Below, one piece after another: positions 8,865 to 15,996 of a DNA stretch of 64,000 bases. Position numbers and translations under genes: made by a program. The first letter of the stretch is position 1. Each line of letters starts with the position of its first letter. The notes below the pieces were generated by a model that was not told where the DNA came from, ran no database searches, and saw only the letters and a list, made by a program, of their open reading frames with translations. The DNA is from Banduia mediterranea (GTDB taxonomy: Bacteria > Pseudomonadota > Gammaproteobacteria > Nevskiales > Nevskiaceae): assembly GCF_031846245.1 (NCBI RefSeq), contig NZ_JAVRIC010000001.1:124001-188000 (forward strand), in the 5' to 3' direction.

Positions 8865-9211
8865 GGGGTCAAAGAAGGTCGGGGTCAGGAAGGTCGGGGT
8901 CAGGTCTTGCGCCTTGACGCAGCCCGCCGATCCACACCTCGCGCGATCCGGCTTACCGTCGAGTAGTCGAGTAGTGCTACCCGAAGTGCACACCGATCTA
9001 CGGAAGTTGTCGGTGTCCGCTCTCGTAGGCGTCGCGACCTTCGTCATTGAGGAAGATTGCTTGACGGGCATTGCCGCGCGCCATCACATGATGGATCGCG
9101 CCGGGGAATTCGATACGCAGAGGGCGGGCCATGCGGGGAACGTAGCGAAGCCAAAGAAATTTGGCAAGGAACAAGACCTGACCCCGACGTTCGACGTTCC
9201 GGACCCCGACG
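8859..9211 (-). repeat. RAYT-derived miniature element, copy 1 (core 8890-9191)
   Basis: A 302-bp core is bounded by inverted repeats AAGGTCGGGGTCAGGTCTTG (8890-8909) and CAAGACCTGACCCCGACGTT (9172-9191), complementary except at one base. Inside, on the minus strand from 9132, lies the N-terminus of a REP-associated tyrosine transposase (MARPLRIEFPGAIHHVMARG...) joined after about 38 residues to what resembles its C-terminal helix-turn-helix. The HUH catalytic centre is absent. The left end is extended by two further partial units (8859-8870 and 8875-8889) and the right end by one more (near 9200-9211). An 8-bp tandem duplication (TCGAGTAG twice, 8959-8974) breaks the frame, and this copy also has an extra stop. 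Confidence 0.85.
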
Positions 9212-9219
9212 TTCCGTTG

Positions 9220-9303
9220 GCGAATGGTCGCGCCGGTATCGTGATTTCTGGCGGCGCCTACTTCACTCAGACCGGTAACGTGCTGATACTGGACGCGGAA
9301 TAG
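9220..9303 (+). pseudogene. C-terminal fragment of an unrecognised protein
   Basis: Directly right of miniature element 1 a frame reads LANGRAGIVISGGAYFTQTG then NVLILDAE and a stop (TAG ending at 9303). It looks like the end of a beta-rich protein whose body has been lost, and is open only back into the repeat. No RBS or start belongs to it. It is probably debris captured between repeats. No family is recognised. Confidence 0.3.
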
Positions 9304-9322
9304 ACAAACATGCCTGCAGTTC

Positions 9323-11620
9323 CTAAATCTCGTACGCTGTACCGAGGTTTTGTGGCAACAACAAATCGTCGGTGTTCAGATCGCCATAGAGCGCCCGAAT
9401 TGAATCATTGTGCTGTCCGAGGTCGGGACCTTTGGTGCATACGGCTGAACCCCCTCGCCGAAAACGAAAAGGGAAACCCGGCAGGCGAACAGCATCTACG
9501 GTCTGTAGCCAATCCCGCGCGGCCAGATGTTCGTCTTGAGACAAATCTTGTGCGTTGAACACAGCGCCAGCCGCGATTCCTTCAGCCTGCAATATCCGCA
9601 TGGCACTGCGGCAATCCTGGCGGCAGGTCCACGTTCCTATTAATGCGTCGATCTCGTCGTGCCGAGTGCTCCGACCGGACACCGTAGCGTAGCGACCGTC
9701 CTGCTCCAGTTCCTTGCCCCCTATGATGCCGGCCAGTTTTCGCCATTGCGCATTGCTCGTAATGCATATGGTTACCCACCGGTCCTTCCCGGAGCAGGGA
9801 TAGCAGCCCTGCGGCGCATAAAATGCGTGGCGGTTACCCACCAAGAGCGGCTCGGTTCCGCTCGACGACGCCATGGCTATGTATTCGCCAATGAGCCAGC
9901 AAGAAGTTTCCGTCTCGGACAGATCGATCCACTGGCCGACCGTGGTGGACTGGCGATGGAATAGCGCCGTGAGCGCGGCACAGAGTCCGAATATGCCATT
10001 CAGGACATCCATCTCGCGTATGCGATAGCGTGGGCCGCCCCTGTCATAGGCGGTGAGCGCCTGCATCCCGCTAATCGCCTCTATGGTGCCGCCATATCCA
10101 GCATAAGCGGCGTATGGACCGGTAGCGCCAAATGCTGACATGGACAGCATGATGATGTCCGGTTTGATGTCCCGCAAGGTATCGTAGGCGAGCCCCAGCC
10201 GCTGCATCACACCGGGACGAGAATTTTCCAGTACGAGATCCGTCGCCGCTACCAGACGCCGACAGAACTCATAGTGATCAGGCCGCTTAAGATCAAGCGT
10301 TAATGATTTCTTCCCACGATGCAACTGCCAAAACCGTGGAAATCCATTGATCTTCTGCTTATATCCGCCGCGCATCGAGTCGACTCGGCCGGGATACTCC
10401 ACCTTGATGACCTCTGCGCCGAAGTCCGCCATCACTCGGGCAGCGTGCGGCCCTGCCCAGTCGTGAGAAAAATCCAGAATTCGTAAGCCTTGCAGAGGAG
10501 CGGCGACTGGTTGTTCTGTGCCATGAGCGGGCACAGGAACGGGAACGGGCACCGCTTGCTCGTGCATGCCCGCATTGCGCCAACGTGATACTTGGCTGCG
10601 AAAAGGCGCGCCGGGAATGCGGCATTTACGGCCGTCCGGTAACTGCGCATCTTGGAAGAAGTCACGCGCTTCATGCTGCGGGTCTGCGAGGACTTCACAT
10701 ACAGAAGCCAAGGGTGACCATGCCAGCCCGCGCTCCTGTCCGAGTAAGAACAACTGCTTTTTTGCCTTGCTCGCAAGCCAGGGCCGGAGCAGGGCTTCGA
10801 AAGCCTTGCGATTCACCAGCCTCTGTTCAACATCAGCGAAGCGGGGCTGGAGCAGCTCTGGAACATCGAACTGCTCGATGGCTCCAACCCAGTTGCGTAC
10901 TGGTCCACCAACGATTGCAACTTCACCATCCGCGCAGGGGTACGTACGCCACGGCACCATTCCATGCTCGTCGCCGTTGCGACGGGGCACGGCGCCGCTA
11001 TGAAGGTGGTCGGCAATCGCGGTCTCGTAGTTCTCCAACGCCGATTCATGCACTGACAGGTCAATGAAATCACCGATCCCATCGCGGCCGCGGCGAAGCA
11101 GCGCCATCAGGCTAGCGGCATAGGCATTGAGACCACCGGACAATTCACAGATCCTCGGCCGGGCATTTAGCGGTTCGCGCTGACCATGGCCAGTGCTGTG
11201 CATTAGGCCACTCATCGCATACAGCGTGATGTCCTCAGCCTGATAGTGCTGGTAAGGCCCGCTCAGGCCGAACGAAGAGATTCGGCAAGTGATCAGACGC
11301 GGATGACGCTGAGCGAGCGCTGCGGCAGCCAATCCGAACGGATCACTGGCTTCAACGGCTCGGGCATCGATCAGCAGGTCAACGGATTCCAGCAACCTAT
11401 GCAGAACATCCGCTGCCTCGGGCACCTGCCAGTCAAAATCCAGTCGGCCCTGTTCGATCTCAAACCACAGCATCTCCTCAGGCGAGTGTAGCGCCGGCTC
11501 GAAGCCGGGCGTGGCCATCGCTTGAACCGTGGCACCGAAGCCGCGCAAGAGCTTGCTGCAGTAAGCAGCGGCAACCCGGCTGCCAATTCGCAGCACGCGG
11601 ATATGGTTCAATGTCCCCAT
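9323..11620 (-). CDS. Tandem-domain CaiB/BaiF-type CoA-transferase
   Basis: 765 residues made of two consecutive family III CoA-transferase (CaiB/BaiF) domains, about residues 1-365 and 385-765, joined by a PVPVPVPAHG linker. Domain 2 has the full signature: LRILDFSHDWAGPHAARVMA, FGAEVIKVEYPGRVDSMRGG, then REMDVLNGIFGLCAALTALF with the expected catalytic Asp. Domain 1 has Glu there (ICELSGGLNAYAASLMALLR), so it may be inactive. Such enzymes move CoA between carboxylic acids; the substrate is unknown. The ATG at 11620 is used; a GTG at 11623 lies inside the IS4 inverted repeat. Base composition is visibly more A+T-rich than the flanking core genes, suggesting transfer. The native promoter appears to have been replaced by the IS element. 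Confidence 0.8.
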   Translation of the reverse strand: MGTLNHIRVLRIGSRVAAAYCSKLLRGFGATVQAMATPGFEPALHSPEEMLWFEIEQGRLDFDWQVPEAADVLHRLLESVDLLIDARAVEASDPFGLAAAALAQRHPRLITCRISSFGLSGPYQHYQAEDITLYAMSGLMHSTGHGQREPLNARPRICELSGGLNAYAASLMALLRRGRDGIGDFIDLSVHESALENYETAIADHLHSGAVPRRNGDEHGMVPWRTYPCADGEVAIVGGPVRNWVGAIEQFDVPELLQPRFADVEQRLVNRKAFEALLRPWLASKAKKQLFLLGQERGLAWSPLASVCEVLADPQHEARDFFQDAQLPDGRKCRIPGAPFRSQVSRWRNAGMHEQAVPVPVPVPAHGTEQPVAAPLQGLRILDFSHDWAGPHAARVMADFGAEVIKVEYPGRVDSMRGGYKQKINGFPRFWQLHRGKKSLTLDLKRPDHYEFCRRLVAATDLVLENSRPGVMQRLGLAYDTLRDIKPDIIMLSMSAFGATGPYAAYAGYGGTIEAISGMQALTAYDRGGPRYRIREMDVLNGIFGLCAALTALFHRQSTTVGQWIDLSETETSCWLIGEYIAMASSSGTEPLLVGNRHAFYAPQGCYPCSGKDRWVTICITSNAQWRKLAGIIGGKELEQDGRYATVSGRSTRHDEIDALIGTWTCRQDCRSAMRILQAEGIAAGAVFNAQDLSQDEHLAARDWLQTVDAVRLPGFPFRFRRGGSAVCTKGPDLGQHNDSIRALYGDLNTDDLLLPQNLGTAYEI

Positions 11621-12466
11621 CACTGCTGTCCAGTTAATACCCGAATAGATTCAACTGGTTGCTGGTCTCGTCCAGTTCGGAATTGTGGCGATGCCCAAGA
11701 AATGCCTGCTGGATGGGCATTTTCTCGAACAGGGTGAGCGAGAAAATCTGTAGCAAAGTGTAGAGCGAGGCATCCAGGTCGAGCCGCTTCTTGACGATGG
11801 CGACGAGCACATAGACCGACACGGCGATCCAGATCTGAGTCTTCACTGCATTCTCGGAGTTCCCGAGAAACCGCTTGATCCGAAGGTGTTGCTTGATCCA
11901 CTTGAAGAACAACTCGACTTGCCAGCGCTGCTTGTACAGCGAGCAGATGGTCGATGCGGGAAAGGTGAACTGGTTGGTCAGAAAGATCAGCGTCTTGTCG
12001 GTTTCGGGGTCTTTGAAGCGGACGCGGCGCAGATGATCGGGATAATCCTTGGCCGAGTATTGACCATCGAGCGCGATGGTCTGGTCGCAGACAATTCCTG
12101 CGATACGATCCGTGGGCGCCGAATAGACACGATGGAAATCCATATTGGACTTGGCTCGTGTCACGAAGAAGCTGCCAGCCCGGTGCATGACATGCAAGCG
12201 GGAGAAGTCCACGTAGCCCCAATCCATCACGTAAATGGCGCCGGCCTCCAGAACCAGCAGGTCGAGCACATTGACGTCGTGAAGCTTGCCGTTGGACATG
12301 AGTTGGGAAAACAGGGTCTTGCCAGAATTCATCGCCGCCTCCGGAGGAATTTCCGGCAGGCTGCATCAATACGGCGTTCAAATTGGCACCACCCAGTTTC
12401 ACGTCTAACCTCTTGTCAGAACAGCAGATTTATCGAAGATGACTATCAGTTAACTGGACAGCAGTG
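11621..12466 (-). mobile_element. IS4-family element with internal deletion
   Basis: The element is delimited by perfect 17-bp terminal inverted repeats, CACTGCTGTCCAGTTAA (11621-11637) and its complement (12450-12466), total 846 bp. Full relatives encode a transposase of roughly 380 residues, so several hundred bases are missing. No matching target-site duplication flanks it (CCCCAT on the left, AAAACC on the right), implying rearrangement after insertion. It abuts the start codon of the CoA-transferase gene on one side and an IS66 fragment on the other. Confidence 0.85.
11634..12332 (-). pseudogene. IS4-family (DUF4372 type) transposase, internally deleted
   Basis: 232 residues, in frame throughout. 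The first dozen (MNSGKTLFSQLM) match the start of the DUF4372 N-terminal domain, but the next residues (SNGKLHDVNVLDLLVLEAGA) belong to the middle of the DDE domain, so roughly 150-180 residues are missing in frame. The second catalytic Asp (YVMDWGYVDF) and the Y-R-E-K signature (YKQRWQVELFFKWIKQHLRI) remain; the first catalytic Asp is in the lost part. It should therefore be transposition-dead. The stop codon lies inside the left inverted repeat. Confidence 0.85.
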
Positions 12467-12477
12467 AAAACCCGTAA

Positions 12478-12639
12478 CTACTCACCCGTTTCAGCGTAGA
12501 GCTGACCGGAAAGCGCGAATTGGATAGCGACGAGGGGATTGTATCCGCGGTTGGCCATGGTCTGCAGGTAGCTGGAGATGCGGCAATAGGCTTGGGCGTA
12601 CGCCCGGTTGCGAAAGCAACCGGAGACTTTCTGCTCAAG
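12478..12639 (-). pseudogene. IS66-family transposase, C-terminal fragment
   Basis: The minus strand reads ELQKVSGCFRNRAYAQAYCR and then ISSYLQTMANRGYNPLVAIQ to a stop at 12478. KVSGCFR followed by a Tyr/Cys/Arg-rich helix is the signature of the IS66 TnpC C-terminal element. Only about 53 residues survive. The upstream side is cut by the second miniature element and the downstream side by the IS4-type element, so at least two later insertions or deletions removed the rest. Confidence 0.7.
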
Positions 12640-12650
12640 GTCGGGGCCAC

Positions 12651-12946
12651 AAGGTCGGGGTCAGGTCTTGCGCCTTGACGCAGCCCGCCAATCCACACCT
12701 CGCGCGATCCGGCTTACCGTCGAGTAGTCGAGTAGTGCAACCCGAAGTGCGCACCGATCTGCGGAAGTTGTCGGTATCCGCTCTCGTAGGCGTCGCGATC
12801 TTCGTCATTGAGGAAGATTGCTTGACGGGCATTGCCGCGCGCCATCACATGATGGATCGCGCCGGGAAATTCGATACGCAGAGGGCGGGCCATGCGGGGA
12901 ACGTAGCGAAGCCAAAGAAATTTGGCAAGGAACAAGACCTGACCCC
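12651..12946 (-). repeat. RAYT-derived miniature element, copy 2
   Basis: The left repeat AAGGTCGGGGTCAGGTCTTG is at 12651-12670; a diverged extra unit AAGGTCGGGGCCAC precedes it at 12637. The right repeat CAAGACCTGACCCC is at 12933-12946 and has lost its last few bases. The interior is nearly identical to copy 1. This copy has the longest open relic frame: from ATG at 12893 to TAA at 12714, reading MARPLRIEFPGAIHHVMARG, NARQAIFLNDEDRDAYESGY and RQLPQIGAHFGLHYSTTRR. The last segment resembles the RAYT C-terminal helix-turn-helix, so the N- and C-ends of the transposase gene are fused with the catalytic middle missing. Confidence 0.85.
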
Positions 12947-13085
12947 CAGGGCTGCGTGTTGGCGTTGCACCGCGCATCGATGCACGGTAGTTTCCGAGGC
13001 ACACACTCGGCGGGGGCCGTCGTGATCATCCAACTTCATTCCAGCTTTCTCAGCTTCGGTTACCTCGCGGCGTCAAGAGCAGCTC

Positions 13086-13163
13086 GGCCAACCAGGCGCT
13101 CCAGCCGACGTATTTGCCTCCGCTTCGCTACGGCAAATCCGCGGCTGAGCTAGGGCGTTGGGC
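13086..13163 (+). other. Integron attC site, complete (site A)
   Basis: All parts of an attC are present at canonical spacing: R'' GGCCAAC (13086-13092), 9 bases, L'' CAGCCG (13102-13107), an inner stem ATTTGCC/GGCAAAT (13112-13118 / 13132-13138), L' CGGCTG (13142-13147), a 10-base spacer and R' GTTGGGC (13157-13163). R'' and R' pair except at one base. The site marks the end of one cassette and, after its G/TT cut point, the start of the cassette carrying the gene at 13222. The 139 bases between the upstream miniature element and this site hold no gene I can recognise. Confidence 0.8.
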
Positions 13164-13221
13164 TTATAAAATCTCCCGTCCGTGCCGAGCGGTTCTCAGC
13201 ACATTTTTAGGAGTTTCTACC

Positions 13222-13548
13222 ATGAAGCGTTTATCAGTTTTTCTTGCAGCCGCAGTAATGTCCGGTTCTGTTTTCGCCGATACCTACGTTCAGGGTTACA
13301 CCAAGAAGGACGGCACGTATGTGCAGGGTCACTACCGCAGCAGCCCTGACCAAAATCGATACAACAATCGCAGTTCACAAAGTTTCGGCGGCACACAGCG
13401 CGACGAATTCAGTAATGGCGGAGGCGCCACGAACAAGCGCAACTCCAGCTACGGCGCTTACGACAACGACCGTGACGGCCTCTACAACAGTTACGACCCT
13501 AAGCCAGAGTCAAAAAGCAACTGCTATCCAGGCACTTACGGTTGCTAA
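13222..13548 (+). CDS. Cassette-borne secreted small protein
   Basis: 108 residues. The ATG at 13222 has TAGGAG 8 bases upstream and gives a clear signal peptide (MKRLSVFLAAAVMSGSVFA, cut before DTY). The mature protein is short, Gly/Ser/Asn-rich and begins TYVQGYTKKDGTYVQGHYRS, then SPDQNRYNNRSSQSFGGTQR. This motif, a YV-G-Y-DGTYV-HYRS-PD-NN pattern, recurs in many small exported proteobacterial proteins of unknown function. Two C-terminal cysteines (NCYPGTYGC) could form a disulfide. It lies immediately after attC site A and is followed by the start of another attC, the standard layout of an integron gene cassette. It is A+T-richer than core genes. Confidence 0.75.
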   Translation: MKRLSVFLAAAVMSGSVFADTYVQGYTKKDGTYVQGHYRSSPDQNRYNNRSSQSFGGTQRDEFSNGGGATNKRNSSYGAYDNDRDGLYNSYDPKPESKSNCYPGTYGC

Positions 13549-13554
13549 AAAGCC

Positions 13555-13581
13555 GCCCAACGAATAGGGATAGATTAAAGT
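13555..13581 (+). other. attC site start, truncated (site B)
   Basis: R'' GCCCAAC (13555-13561) lies six bases after the cassette gene stop, exactly where an attC should begin, and would pair perfectly with the GTTGGGC core of site A. The expected L'' box does not follow: after about 20 bases the palindromic element at 13583 begins, and no R' core reappears on its far side. The site looks overwritten. Confidence 0.5.
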
Positions 13582-13582
13582 G

Positions 13583-13654
13583 AAAAGGGGACAGATTTAT
13601 TTTTTGGATTCAACCTGCCTACCAGCTAACCAGAAAATAAATCTGTTCCCTTTT
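13583..13654. repeat. 72-bp palindromic element, copy 1
   Basis: Inverted arms start AAAAGGGGACAGATTTATTT (13583) and end with the complement at 13634-13654 (21-bp arms, one mismatch, a T in place of C in the right arm). A roughly 30-base centre, TTGGATTCAACCTGCCTACC and onwards, separates them. An almost identical copy lies at 14157-14228, so the two copies bracket the lipoprotein gene between them. Its size and shape fit a miniature element moved by a hairpin-recognising transposase; no such enzyme is encoded here. Confidence 0.8.
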
Positions 13655-13677
13655 TTCGAGCAAAGGGGAGTTGTCTT

Positions 13678-14124
13678 ATGTTGAGAAAAATCGCTTCGGT
13701 AGTGCTGCTGGCTTTGCTGGCTGGCTGCGCCACACACAACGTGCAGCTTTACGGACCCATTGACACTTCGAATAAAACCGTCACGGTTCCACCTGGCTCA
13801 GAAGGATTGAAGGGCAAATTGAAACAGGCATTGGCAAACGACGGTTGGAAACTCATCGTCTATAGGGGCCCTTCGGTCACAGAGGGTGAGGTTGGGGAAA
13901 AAACCAAAATCGAGCACTACGACACATTCAATTCAAGATATAGGCTTATCACCTCCTCTTACCAGTTCGATCTATGCATCAATGGCCTCACACCAGCCAT
14001 TAAGTACGACATATCGTTCATTGATAACAAGTCGGGGGCGGAGGTTTTCACGATTAATGGTCGTGGTTGCGAACCCGATGCAGTAGAGAAATTCATGAAT
14101 GCACTGCGAGGCAAAGACAAATAA
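13678..14124 (+). CDS. Small lipoprotein of unknown function
   Basis: 148 residues. The signal peptide MLRKIASVVLLALLAGC has an LLAGC lipobox with the lipidated Cys at 17. AAGGGGAG lies about 7 bases before the ATG. The mature domain (about residues 35-148) contains GSEGLKGKLKQALANDGWKL and YRLITSSYQFDLCINGLTPA and ends VEKFMNALRGKDK. Two internal cysteines are present. I recognise no family. It is markedly A+T-rich for this genome and lies between two copies of the 72-bp palindrome, consistent with acquired DNA. A GCATAAC heptamer at 14126-14132 just after the stop may be the R'' remnant of another attC, which would make this a second cassette. Confidence 0.7.
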   Translation: MLRKIASVVLLALLAGCATHNVQLYGPIDTSNKTVTVPPGSEGLKGKLKQALANDGWKLIVYRGPSVTEGEVGEKTKIEHYDTFNSRYRLITSSYQFDLCINGLTPAIKYDISFIDNKSGAEVFTINGRGCEPDAVEKFMNALRGKDK

Positions 14125-14156
14125 TGCATAACATTGAAGTGAAAAGGGGACCGGTG

Positions 14157-14228
14157 AAAAGGGGACAGATTTATTTTTTGGATTCAACCTGCCTACCAGC
14201 TAACCAGAAAATAAATCTGTCCCCTTTT
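14157..14228. repeat. 72-bp palindromic element, copy 2
   Basis: The 21-bp arms (14157-14177 and 14208-14228) are perfectly complementary. The centre is the same as in copy 1. A partial extra left end (GTGAAAAGGGGACCG, from about 14140) precedes it, the same kind of end-duplication seen at the 302-bp elements. It is followed within six bases by a solitary right end of the 302-bp family. Confidence 0.8.
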
Positions 14229-14233
14229 TTTCT

Positions 14234-14271
14234 AAAGAAATTTGGCAAGGAACAAGACCTGACCCTGACGT
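14234..14271 (-). repeat. Solitary right end of the 302-bp element family
   Basis: AAAGAAATTTGGCAAGGAAC followed by AAGACCTGACCCTGACGT matches the right terminus of the 302-bp elements with a single mismatch. No left end or interior accompanies it. It is either the scar of a deletion or an end-only insertion. Confidence 0.7.
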
Positions 14272-14302
14272 CCGATTCGGCCGACGCGCGAGAGACCGCG
14301 AC

Positions 14303-14461
14303 CTACTTCTTGCCCTTCTCAGCCTCCTTCCGAATCGTCCCGATCTTTTTATCGGAGCGCGTATCCCGACCCGTATTCGGATCGCGGATTGTACCGGGGG
14401 GAAGGCCGTGCTTCTTCTCGTGACTACCCACGGTCTGATCACTACGATCTCTTCTTGTCAT
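14303..14461 (-). CDS. Small basic protein of unknown function
   Basis: 52 residues, rich in Lys/Arg: MTRRDRSDQTVGSHEKKHGL, then PPGTIRDPNTGRDTRSDKKI and GTIRKEAEKGKK. The ATG at 14461 is preferred because GAGG lies 8 bases upstream; the same frame could be read from further upstream without a ribosome-binding site. It is short, but the coding frame is clean and has nucleic-acid-binding-like composition. No family is recognised. It lies between repeat debris and the next cassette, on the opposite strand to the cassette genes. Confidence 0.45.
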   Translation of the reverse strand: MTRRDRSDQTVGSHEKKHGLPPGTIRDPNTGRDTRSDKKIGTIRKEAEKGKK

Positions 14462-14617
14462 GACGCATGCCTCATAGGTTGGTTCAAATGGGCCGCTTCG
14501 TAGGGGAAACCAAGCGGACCGTGGCGTCAAGTGTGCATCATTCGCACCTCCGACGAGACAGATAGTATCTCCAAATTCTATGATAGTCTAGGACGATAGA
14601 TTTCAACGGAGAATGAC

Positions 14618-14773
14618 GTGCCTCGGAAGCCAGGAGATGGGAACTACACCCTGCGGGAGAAGCGGCTGATCGCCGAGAAGAAGGCGCTCGAAGCGGACAA
14701 CAAGGCGAAGGACGCTAAGCTGAAGGCCAAGGATGCCAGGATCGCGGAGTTACGAGCCAAACTTGGCGGGTAA
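14618..14773 (+). CDS. 51-residue charged coiled-coil protein (probable cassette gene)
   Basis: A GTG start at 14618 with CGGAGA 5 bases upstream opens MPRKPGDGNYTLREKRLIAE, then KKALEADNKAKDAKLKAKDA and RIAELRAKLGG, stop at 14773. Almost the whole protein is a Lys/Glu/Ala heptad helix, so a dimeric coiled coil is likely. An overlapping ATG at 14613 is out of frame and soon stops. The gene is followed 16 bases later by an attC R'' box, the normal position in an integron cassette. Function unknown. Confidence 0.55.
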   Translation: MPRKPGDGNYTLREKRLIAEKKALEADNKAKDAKLKAKDARIAELRAKLGG

Positions 14774-14789
14774 CTGCTCTCTCAGTGAC

Positions 14790-14826
14790 GCCCAACGCCG
14801 AGCTTCAGCCGCGGCTGCGCTCGCAA
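14790..14826 (+). other. attC site, truncated at its right core (site C)
   Basis: R'' GCCCAAC (14790-14796), 9 bases, then CAGCCG (14806-14811) directly followed by CGGCTG (14812-14817): the outer L boxes are present at canonical spacing but the variable hairpin between them is gone. At the position where R' GTTGGGC should stand (about 14827) the sequence is already the left end of miniature element copy 3. The site marks the end of the 51-residue-protein cassette. Confidence 0.6.
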
Positions 14827-15126
14827 GGTCGGGGTCAGGTCTTGCGCCTTGACGCAGCCCGCCGATCCACACCTCGCGCGATCCGGCTTACCGTCGAGTA
14901 GTCGAGTAGTGCGACCCGAAGTGCGCACCGATCTGCGGAAGTTGTCGGTGTCCGCTCTCGTAGGCGTCGCGATCTTCGTCATTGAGGAAGATTGCTTGAC
15001 GGGCATTGCCGCGCGCCATCACATGATGGATCGCGCCGAGGAATTCGATGCGTAGAGGACGGGCCATCCGGGGAACGTAGCGAAGCCAAAGAAATTTGGC
15101 AAGGAACAAGACCTGACCCCGACGTT
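14825..15126 (-). repeat. RAYT-derived miniature element, copy 3
   Basis: Full-length 302 bp, the same size as the copy 1 core. Left repeat AAGGTCGGGGTCAGGTCTTG (14825-14844), right repeat CAAGACCTGACCCCGACGTT (15107-15126). The relic transposase frame starts at ATG 15067 on the minus strand and carries the shared TCGAGTAG duplication. It has landed at the right core of attC site C and also abuts the gene fragment at 15127. Confidence 0.88.
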
Positions 15127-15552
15127 CTTGATTTCCTCCCGAAGATCATCGGCCATACGGTGTGCAAGCCACTCATTCGCTTCAAGGCGGTCGTAGTGGT
15201 CTTCCGGCGCGTGATGAAATTCTTTTCGGAAATCCTTCATTGCATCTTCGCGAATCTCCGGAATACGACTGTGCAGCCTCGACGCGTAATCAACAGAGAC
15301 ATTTCCAGTGTCCGTATACATGTCCCTTAAATTACCGCTGAATTGACCCTGCAACCCACCGCTTGGGCCGGCCATTGGATTGCCTATGCTCAAGCCGAGA
15401 TTGGCGCCGACGCTGCCGCCCAATTCTTTGGTCCGCTGTTCCCCGTCCGTCGCCTCCAAATGAACACCTCGCCCTGCAGTGATCGCCTGACTCGCATTCA
15501 CGATTAGGGAGGACATCGTCTCATCGTCTTTCTCGCCCGTCATGATGTCGGC
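15127..15552 (-). pseudogene. Gene fragment trapped between two miniature elements
   Basis: An open minus-strand frame of about 140 codons fills the space between copies 3 and 4 exactly. It includes MTGEKDDETMSSLIVNASQA, ELGGSVGANLGLSIGNPMAG, VSVDYASRLHSRIPEIREDA and EWLAHRMADDLREEIKN. Gly/Ser-rich loops followed by long helices resemble the C-terminal region of conjugative mating-pair stabilisation proteins of TraG type, but the match is from memory and weak. No start or ribosome-binding site is visible, and the frame only extends further by running through repeat sequence. It is probably a fragment of a larger gene. Confidence 0.4.
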
Positions 15553-15806
15553 AAGGTCGGGGTCAGGTCTTGCGCCTTGACGCAGCCCGCCGATCCACAC
15601 CTCGCGCGATCCGGCTTACCGTCGAGTAGTCGAGTAGTGCGACCCGAAGTGCGCACCGATCTGCGGAAGTTGTCGGTGTCCGCTCTCGTAGGCGTCGCGA
15701 TCTTCGTCATTGAGGAAGATTGCTTGACGGGCATTGCCGCGCGCCATCACATGATGGATCGCGCCGGGGAATTCGATACGCAGAGGGCGGGCCATGCGGG
15801 GGAACG
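15553..15806 (-). repeat. RAYT-derived miniature element, copy 4 (right end missing)
   Basis: The left repeat is intact (15553-15572) and the interior, including the relic start codon at 15795, is nearly identical to copy 3. The sequence breaks off just past the ATGCGGGG at the relic start. The last 50 or so bases, including the right repeat, are replaced by the start of the 109-bp relative. Confidence 0.8.
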
Positions 15807-15814
15807 CACAAGTG

Positions 15815-15923
15815 GGGTCAGGTCTTGCGCTTTGACGAGGGTCGCCGATCAATACCTTGAATAGTGCAGACCGGAGAGCGCGCCGATCTGAGAAAAGGTG
15901 CGGCAAGGAACAAGACCTGACCC
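15815..15923. repeat. 109-bp relative of the miniature elements
   Basis: Perfect 13-bp ends GGGTCAGGTCTTG (15815-15827) and CAAGACCTGACCC (15911-15923) enclose a diverged interior. Blocks such as CGCCGATC, AGTGCAGACCGGAG and GCGCCGATCTGAG line up with the left third of the 302-bp elements, after which the sequence jumps to the common right end. It is therefore a further internal deletion of a related but older RAYT source. Confidence 0.75.
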
Positions 15924-15996
15924 GAATGGCGCTTACTTCCAATCAACCGGGCGCGCGACGAACGCCGACAGTTCAGGAGAAACCTCGGCTCACCGT

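Follow-up and report, generated by a model that had tools for sequence, protein, structure and literature searches.

Attachment sites and gene cassettes lying away from an integron integrase have already been described in several settings. Among the closest to the present case is the CALIN (cluster of attC sites lacking an integron integrase), which in the default setting of IntegronFinder 2 needs at least two attC sites (PMC9024848). In Xanthomonas, roughly one genome in two carries displaced CALINs (PMC12444791). To explain how CALINs arise, off-target insertion, loss of intI and rearrangement have been proposed (PMC8618304). A further setting is that of single cassettes that have entered attG sites (Loot et al. 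2024, as cited in PMC12901181). Here we compare with these systems a locus of Banduia mediterranea, located in a 64,000-nucleotide stretch of contig C1 (hereafter the window), whose features are listed in Table 1.

A complete attC site and the cassette gene beside it

The original prediction of a complete attC site at this locus is borne out: the four boxes lie where they had been placed, and the site also has an inner stem and one extrahelical base. R'' and R' are complementary in 6 of 7 positions, with a mismatch at the second base and the expected GTTRRRY ending, and both the letters and the fold give 9 pairs between L'' and L' with a single extra base in L''. The 9- and 10-base spacings first proposed for the site are correct only when the L box is taken to be its CAGCCG/CGGCTG part. 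Compared with dinucleotide shuffles, the fold has a z-score of -2.3 for the bottom strand and -2.7 for the top strand. In single-stranded form the site would adopt an imperfect hairpin in which one base is extrahelical, and this is the form that IntI recognises; cutting would fall at G^TTGGGC, placing the crossover, we infer, at 13157^13158.

We used a covariance model (R1) trained on nine attC sites from elsewhere in the same genome, with the window site held out; R1 is thus a home-made model and not the attC model of IntegronFinder. The R and L helices covary among its nine training sites. Searching the window and the genome with R1 returned a match at 13086-13164 with 55.7 bits (E=5e-13 within the window, E=3e-11 genome-wide), and the runner-up in the window reached just 11.6 bits. 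No match was found in an Rfam search of the window, which is uninformative for attC because Rfam, to our knowledge, holds no attC family. The two arms are each identical in 22 of 24 bases (22/24 and 22/24) to those of the attC site at C10:5649-5727, which belongs to the integron array described below. The window site closes a cassette that lay upstream and has lost most of its body, and in their sequence it and gene 13222-13548 have the order and orientation correct for consecutive cassettes.

Table 1. Integron-related features and repeat elements of the locus, in window coordinates.
Feature	Position	Strand	Basis or remark
Intact attC	13086-13163	+	held-out covariance model, fold, arm match to C10:5649-5727
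attC box R'', GGCCAAC	13086-13092	+	sequence
attC box L'', GCT-C-CAGCCG	13098-13107	+	one extra (extrahelical) base
attC box L', CGGCTGAGC	13142-13150	+	sequence
attC box R', GTTGGGC	13157-13163	+	sequence
attC spacers	13093-13097 and 13151-13156		
attC inner stem, ATTTGCC/GGCAAAT	13112-13118 / 13132-13138		
Second cassette (leader, gene, R'' of its own lost attC)	13158-13561	+	lies between attC core and next R''
Leader hairpin	13182-13202	+	fold and comparison with L079, L082, L083 and L087; just 5' of ribosome-binding site
Cassette gene	13222-13548	+	108-aa protein, predicted signal peptide
R'', GCCCAAC	13555-13561	+	sole remainder of the second cassette's attC; sequence
GGGGACAGATTTATTT-type inverted-repeat element	13581-13656	.	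directly after R'' 13555; sequence
attC left half-site (R'' and L'')	14790-14815	+	17.5 bits; interrupted before L'/R'
GGGGTCAGGTCTTG inverted-repeat element	14825-15121	.	severs the 14790 half-site; terminal repeats at 14831 (+) and 15120 (-)

We judge the gene that follows to be real, and it agrees with the small secreted-protein gene originally proposed, having its own ribosome-binding site (GGAG) and a predicted signal peptide. It lies between attC cores that are oriented as in an array, its 3' attC having been lost except for the R'' at 13555. The 108-aa protein has no match in Pfam or NCBIfam, and among 85 genomes of the order it was matched in 3, B. mediterranea counted. Homologues inside attC arrays were found in the metagenome-assembled genomes of a member of the Gallionellaceae (L082) and of a member of the Betaproteobacteria (L079). 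The L082 homologue is flanked by attC; for the L079 gene, the attC directly 3' of it was identified by eye and was not among the matches of the covariance model. When L079 is compared with L087, from a groundwater betaproteobacterium, the two are identical from GTTGGGC across the leader and into the gene, and unrelated 5' of GTTGGGC. To judge from this alignment, the start of identity is the boundary expected of an IntI crossover, and together with the attC flanks of L082 it indicates that the family moves as a cassette. In one related genome a homologue lies in a prophage-like region without attC; the family is therefore not confined to cassettes. Matches of the protein to plasmids were weak and partial, and none were found to phages. 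The family clearly exemplifies cassettes common to distant bacteria, the recombination boundary being visible in the sequence.

The leader of the cassette contains a hairpin with weak z-scores. In the cassette-borne homologues its stem varies and its loop is GAGCGG-like, and the hairpin is missing from most other close homologues compared. That this conserved hairpin is a regulatory element travelling with the cassette is conceivable, but in our view rather improbable. The L079 cassette had no match among plasmids. Its 20-base hairpin had two matches in viral contigs, neither accompanied by an attC match, and we regard both as chance.

Broken neighbouring sites and inverted-repeat elements

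Two further sites had been proposed downstream, and both are incomplete. The first, an R'' at 13555, is an exact GCCCAAC placed 7 bases past the stop codon of the cassette gene, but it is a bare 7-mer that is not enriched in the window (6 observed against 10.5 expected by chance); it may be a remnant of an attC, a weaker assignment than that of the intact site, and the 7-mer alone is compatible with chance. The second, at 14790, has the R'' and L'' half of a site and is then cut by a repeat element. It is the second-best left half in the window, and a higher score was seen in 1 of 12 random 64-kb sequences; it is probably the left half of another attC, an assignment resting partly on its position. 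The locus hence consists of one intact site, one half-site and one bare R'', so that the cluster of attC sites originally envisaged is here neither clean nor made up of complete sites.

Repeat elements directly adjoin the broken sites at 13555 and 14790. Further GGGGACAGATTTATTT copies are present at 14155-14230 in the window and on C6; this element is confined to the two window copies, which can also be bounded more narrowly at 13587-13650 and 14161-14224, and a cluster at G000:C6 15112-22560. Elements ended by GGGGTCAGGTCTTG are approximately 290 bp long and occur at 8896-15924 in the window and throughout the genome, in which there are 51 exact matches to the end sequence. They carry part of an open reading frame that by eye resembles a REP-associated transposase, and their outer ends often show repeats of short segments that combine flank and element tip. 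The idea that GGGGTCAGGTCTTG elements target attC is unsupported, as most copies lie at no attC. Nor is there support for an additional cassette formed by the 148-aa gene at 13678, its homologues in relatives being without an attC match.

Integron pieces elsewhere in the genome and the order

The original prediction placed the site in a region with no integrase, and for the region this is true, as a TIGR02249 search found no integrase match on the 294-kb contig C1; given the absence from a contig of this length, it is not an artefact of a contig edge. For the genome as a whole it is false, since intI matches were obtained on other contigs and C10 carries a complete intI (471.7 bits to TIGR02249) that adjoins tgt and is followed by eight attC sites. 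The closest solved structure to the C10 IntI is the integron integrase 2A3V. In total the genome contains at least 12 attC sites besides that of the window. With this count and the strong model match, neither of the two outcomes originally named as refuting the proposal occurred, and the reading of the region as a chromosomal integron's relic or outpost is upheld. Outside C10, attC sites occur on C2, C4 (two) and C7.

The start of the integron platform recurs as decayed copies on C2 (92.5% identical; L010 10079-13390) and C14 (95%; L012 9394-9990). The platform sequence is therefore present at C10, C2 and C14; it is absent from the window, where no intI or attI remnant was found. Downstream of the C2 copy are genes encoding AIPR and TIR/SEFIR domains, a content suggestive of defence cassettes. 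On C7 (L067 2198-2724) a lone cassette with one attC and the start GCGTTAG lies directly after folB. It has the look of an off-target insertion, but comparison with the sister species (G001), which differs beyond folB, revealed no empty site. The two attC sites of C4 (L066 3331-3752; L011 near 9877) are on the minus strand in a region with prophage-like genes, near a C-terminal fragment from another integron integrase.

The integron platform of C10 is shared with the sister species, at 97.6% identity across 4.9 kb, and the two IntI proteins are identical; homology breaks off at the attI end, and the arrays differ. Beside its orthologous acyl-CoA dehydrogenase gene no attC match was found. Across relatives up to the same order, attC matches were present in 55 of the 61 genomes searched, and 15 of these 55 had no integrase at E<=1e-30, a figure that is an upper bound as many of the genomes are drafts. 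It is common for members of the order to carry detached attC sites, and the attC types are similar throughout it.

Origin of the fragment and comparison with known systems

We consider it very probable that 13086-13561 is part of a cassette array that belonged to a sedentary chromosomal integron, and that inverted-repeat elements later broke it. The fragment would comprise the intact attC of one cassette and then the next cassette, with its own attC reduced to R''. The integron from which it came was probably like the one that B. mediterranea retains intact next to tgt, fragmentation or rearrangement of the array would be the simplest route, and the inverted-repeat elements would have broken up the fragment afterwards. 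The platform copies at two other loci show that parts of an integron have changed place, or been duplicated, in B. mediterranea; as the window holds no intI or attI remnant, and as attC types resemble one another throughout the order, descent from the C10 platform in particular is not proven.

The main rival, possible though doubtful in our view, is that cassettes entered a non-attI (attG-like) chromosomal site here through the action of the resident IntI and that repeats broke them later. Off-target insertion is among the origins proposed for CALINs (PMC8618304) and the C7 cassette after folB is a lone one-attC cassette in the same genome, but in the window an attC is followed by another cassette, placed as in an array, so that more than a single cassette is present, and an empty site was found neither here, with the sister species as comparison, nor at C7. 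Less likely still, we believe, is arrival with another mobile element (a conjugative or plasmid remnant), the fragment never having been part of the resident integron: although both species keep beside the locus a gene fragment read by eye as a conjugation remnant (weak in Pfam), and close homologues of the cassette gene exist in distant bacteria, the attC arms closely match the resident array and the cassette protein has no good plasmid or phage match. A chance hairpin, its boxes coincidental in GC-rich DNA, would suit the moderate folding z-score and the unenriched GCCCAAC, but it can practically be dismissed given the genome-wide E-value of the held-out model, the low score of the next window match and the cassette-family gene directly after the attC.

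A fragment of a cassette array, as we favour, can be set against the known systems as follows. Like CALINs, including those displaced in Xanthomonas, the locus has an attC and a cassette at a distance from intI, the genome retains an integron elsewhere, and there is no integron integrase nearby. It differs from them in having one intact attC (a single significant model match in the window), the others being a half-site and a bare R'', and is accordingly CALIN-like yet below the two-site threshold. With the sedentary chromosomal integron of C10 it shares the attC type, whereas C10 has intI and eight ordered attC sites and the window is without intI, attI or a full array, so that no intI and attI stand beside an array here as in a complete integron. 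Similar to the attG lone cassettes, the cassette lies away from attI; unlike them, the window shows two consecutive cassettes in array order and no insertion junction. As the attC hairpin has the form recognised by IntI, the intact resident integrase could still act on this stray site in trans. The locus is genuine but ordinary, a partly destroyed cassette-array fragment of a known type whose likeliest source is a sedentary chromosomal integron, and it extends to this lineage the familiar picture of cassettes scattered away from their integron.
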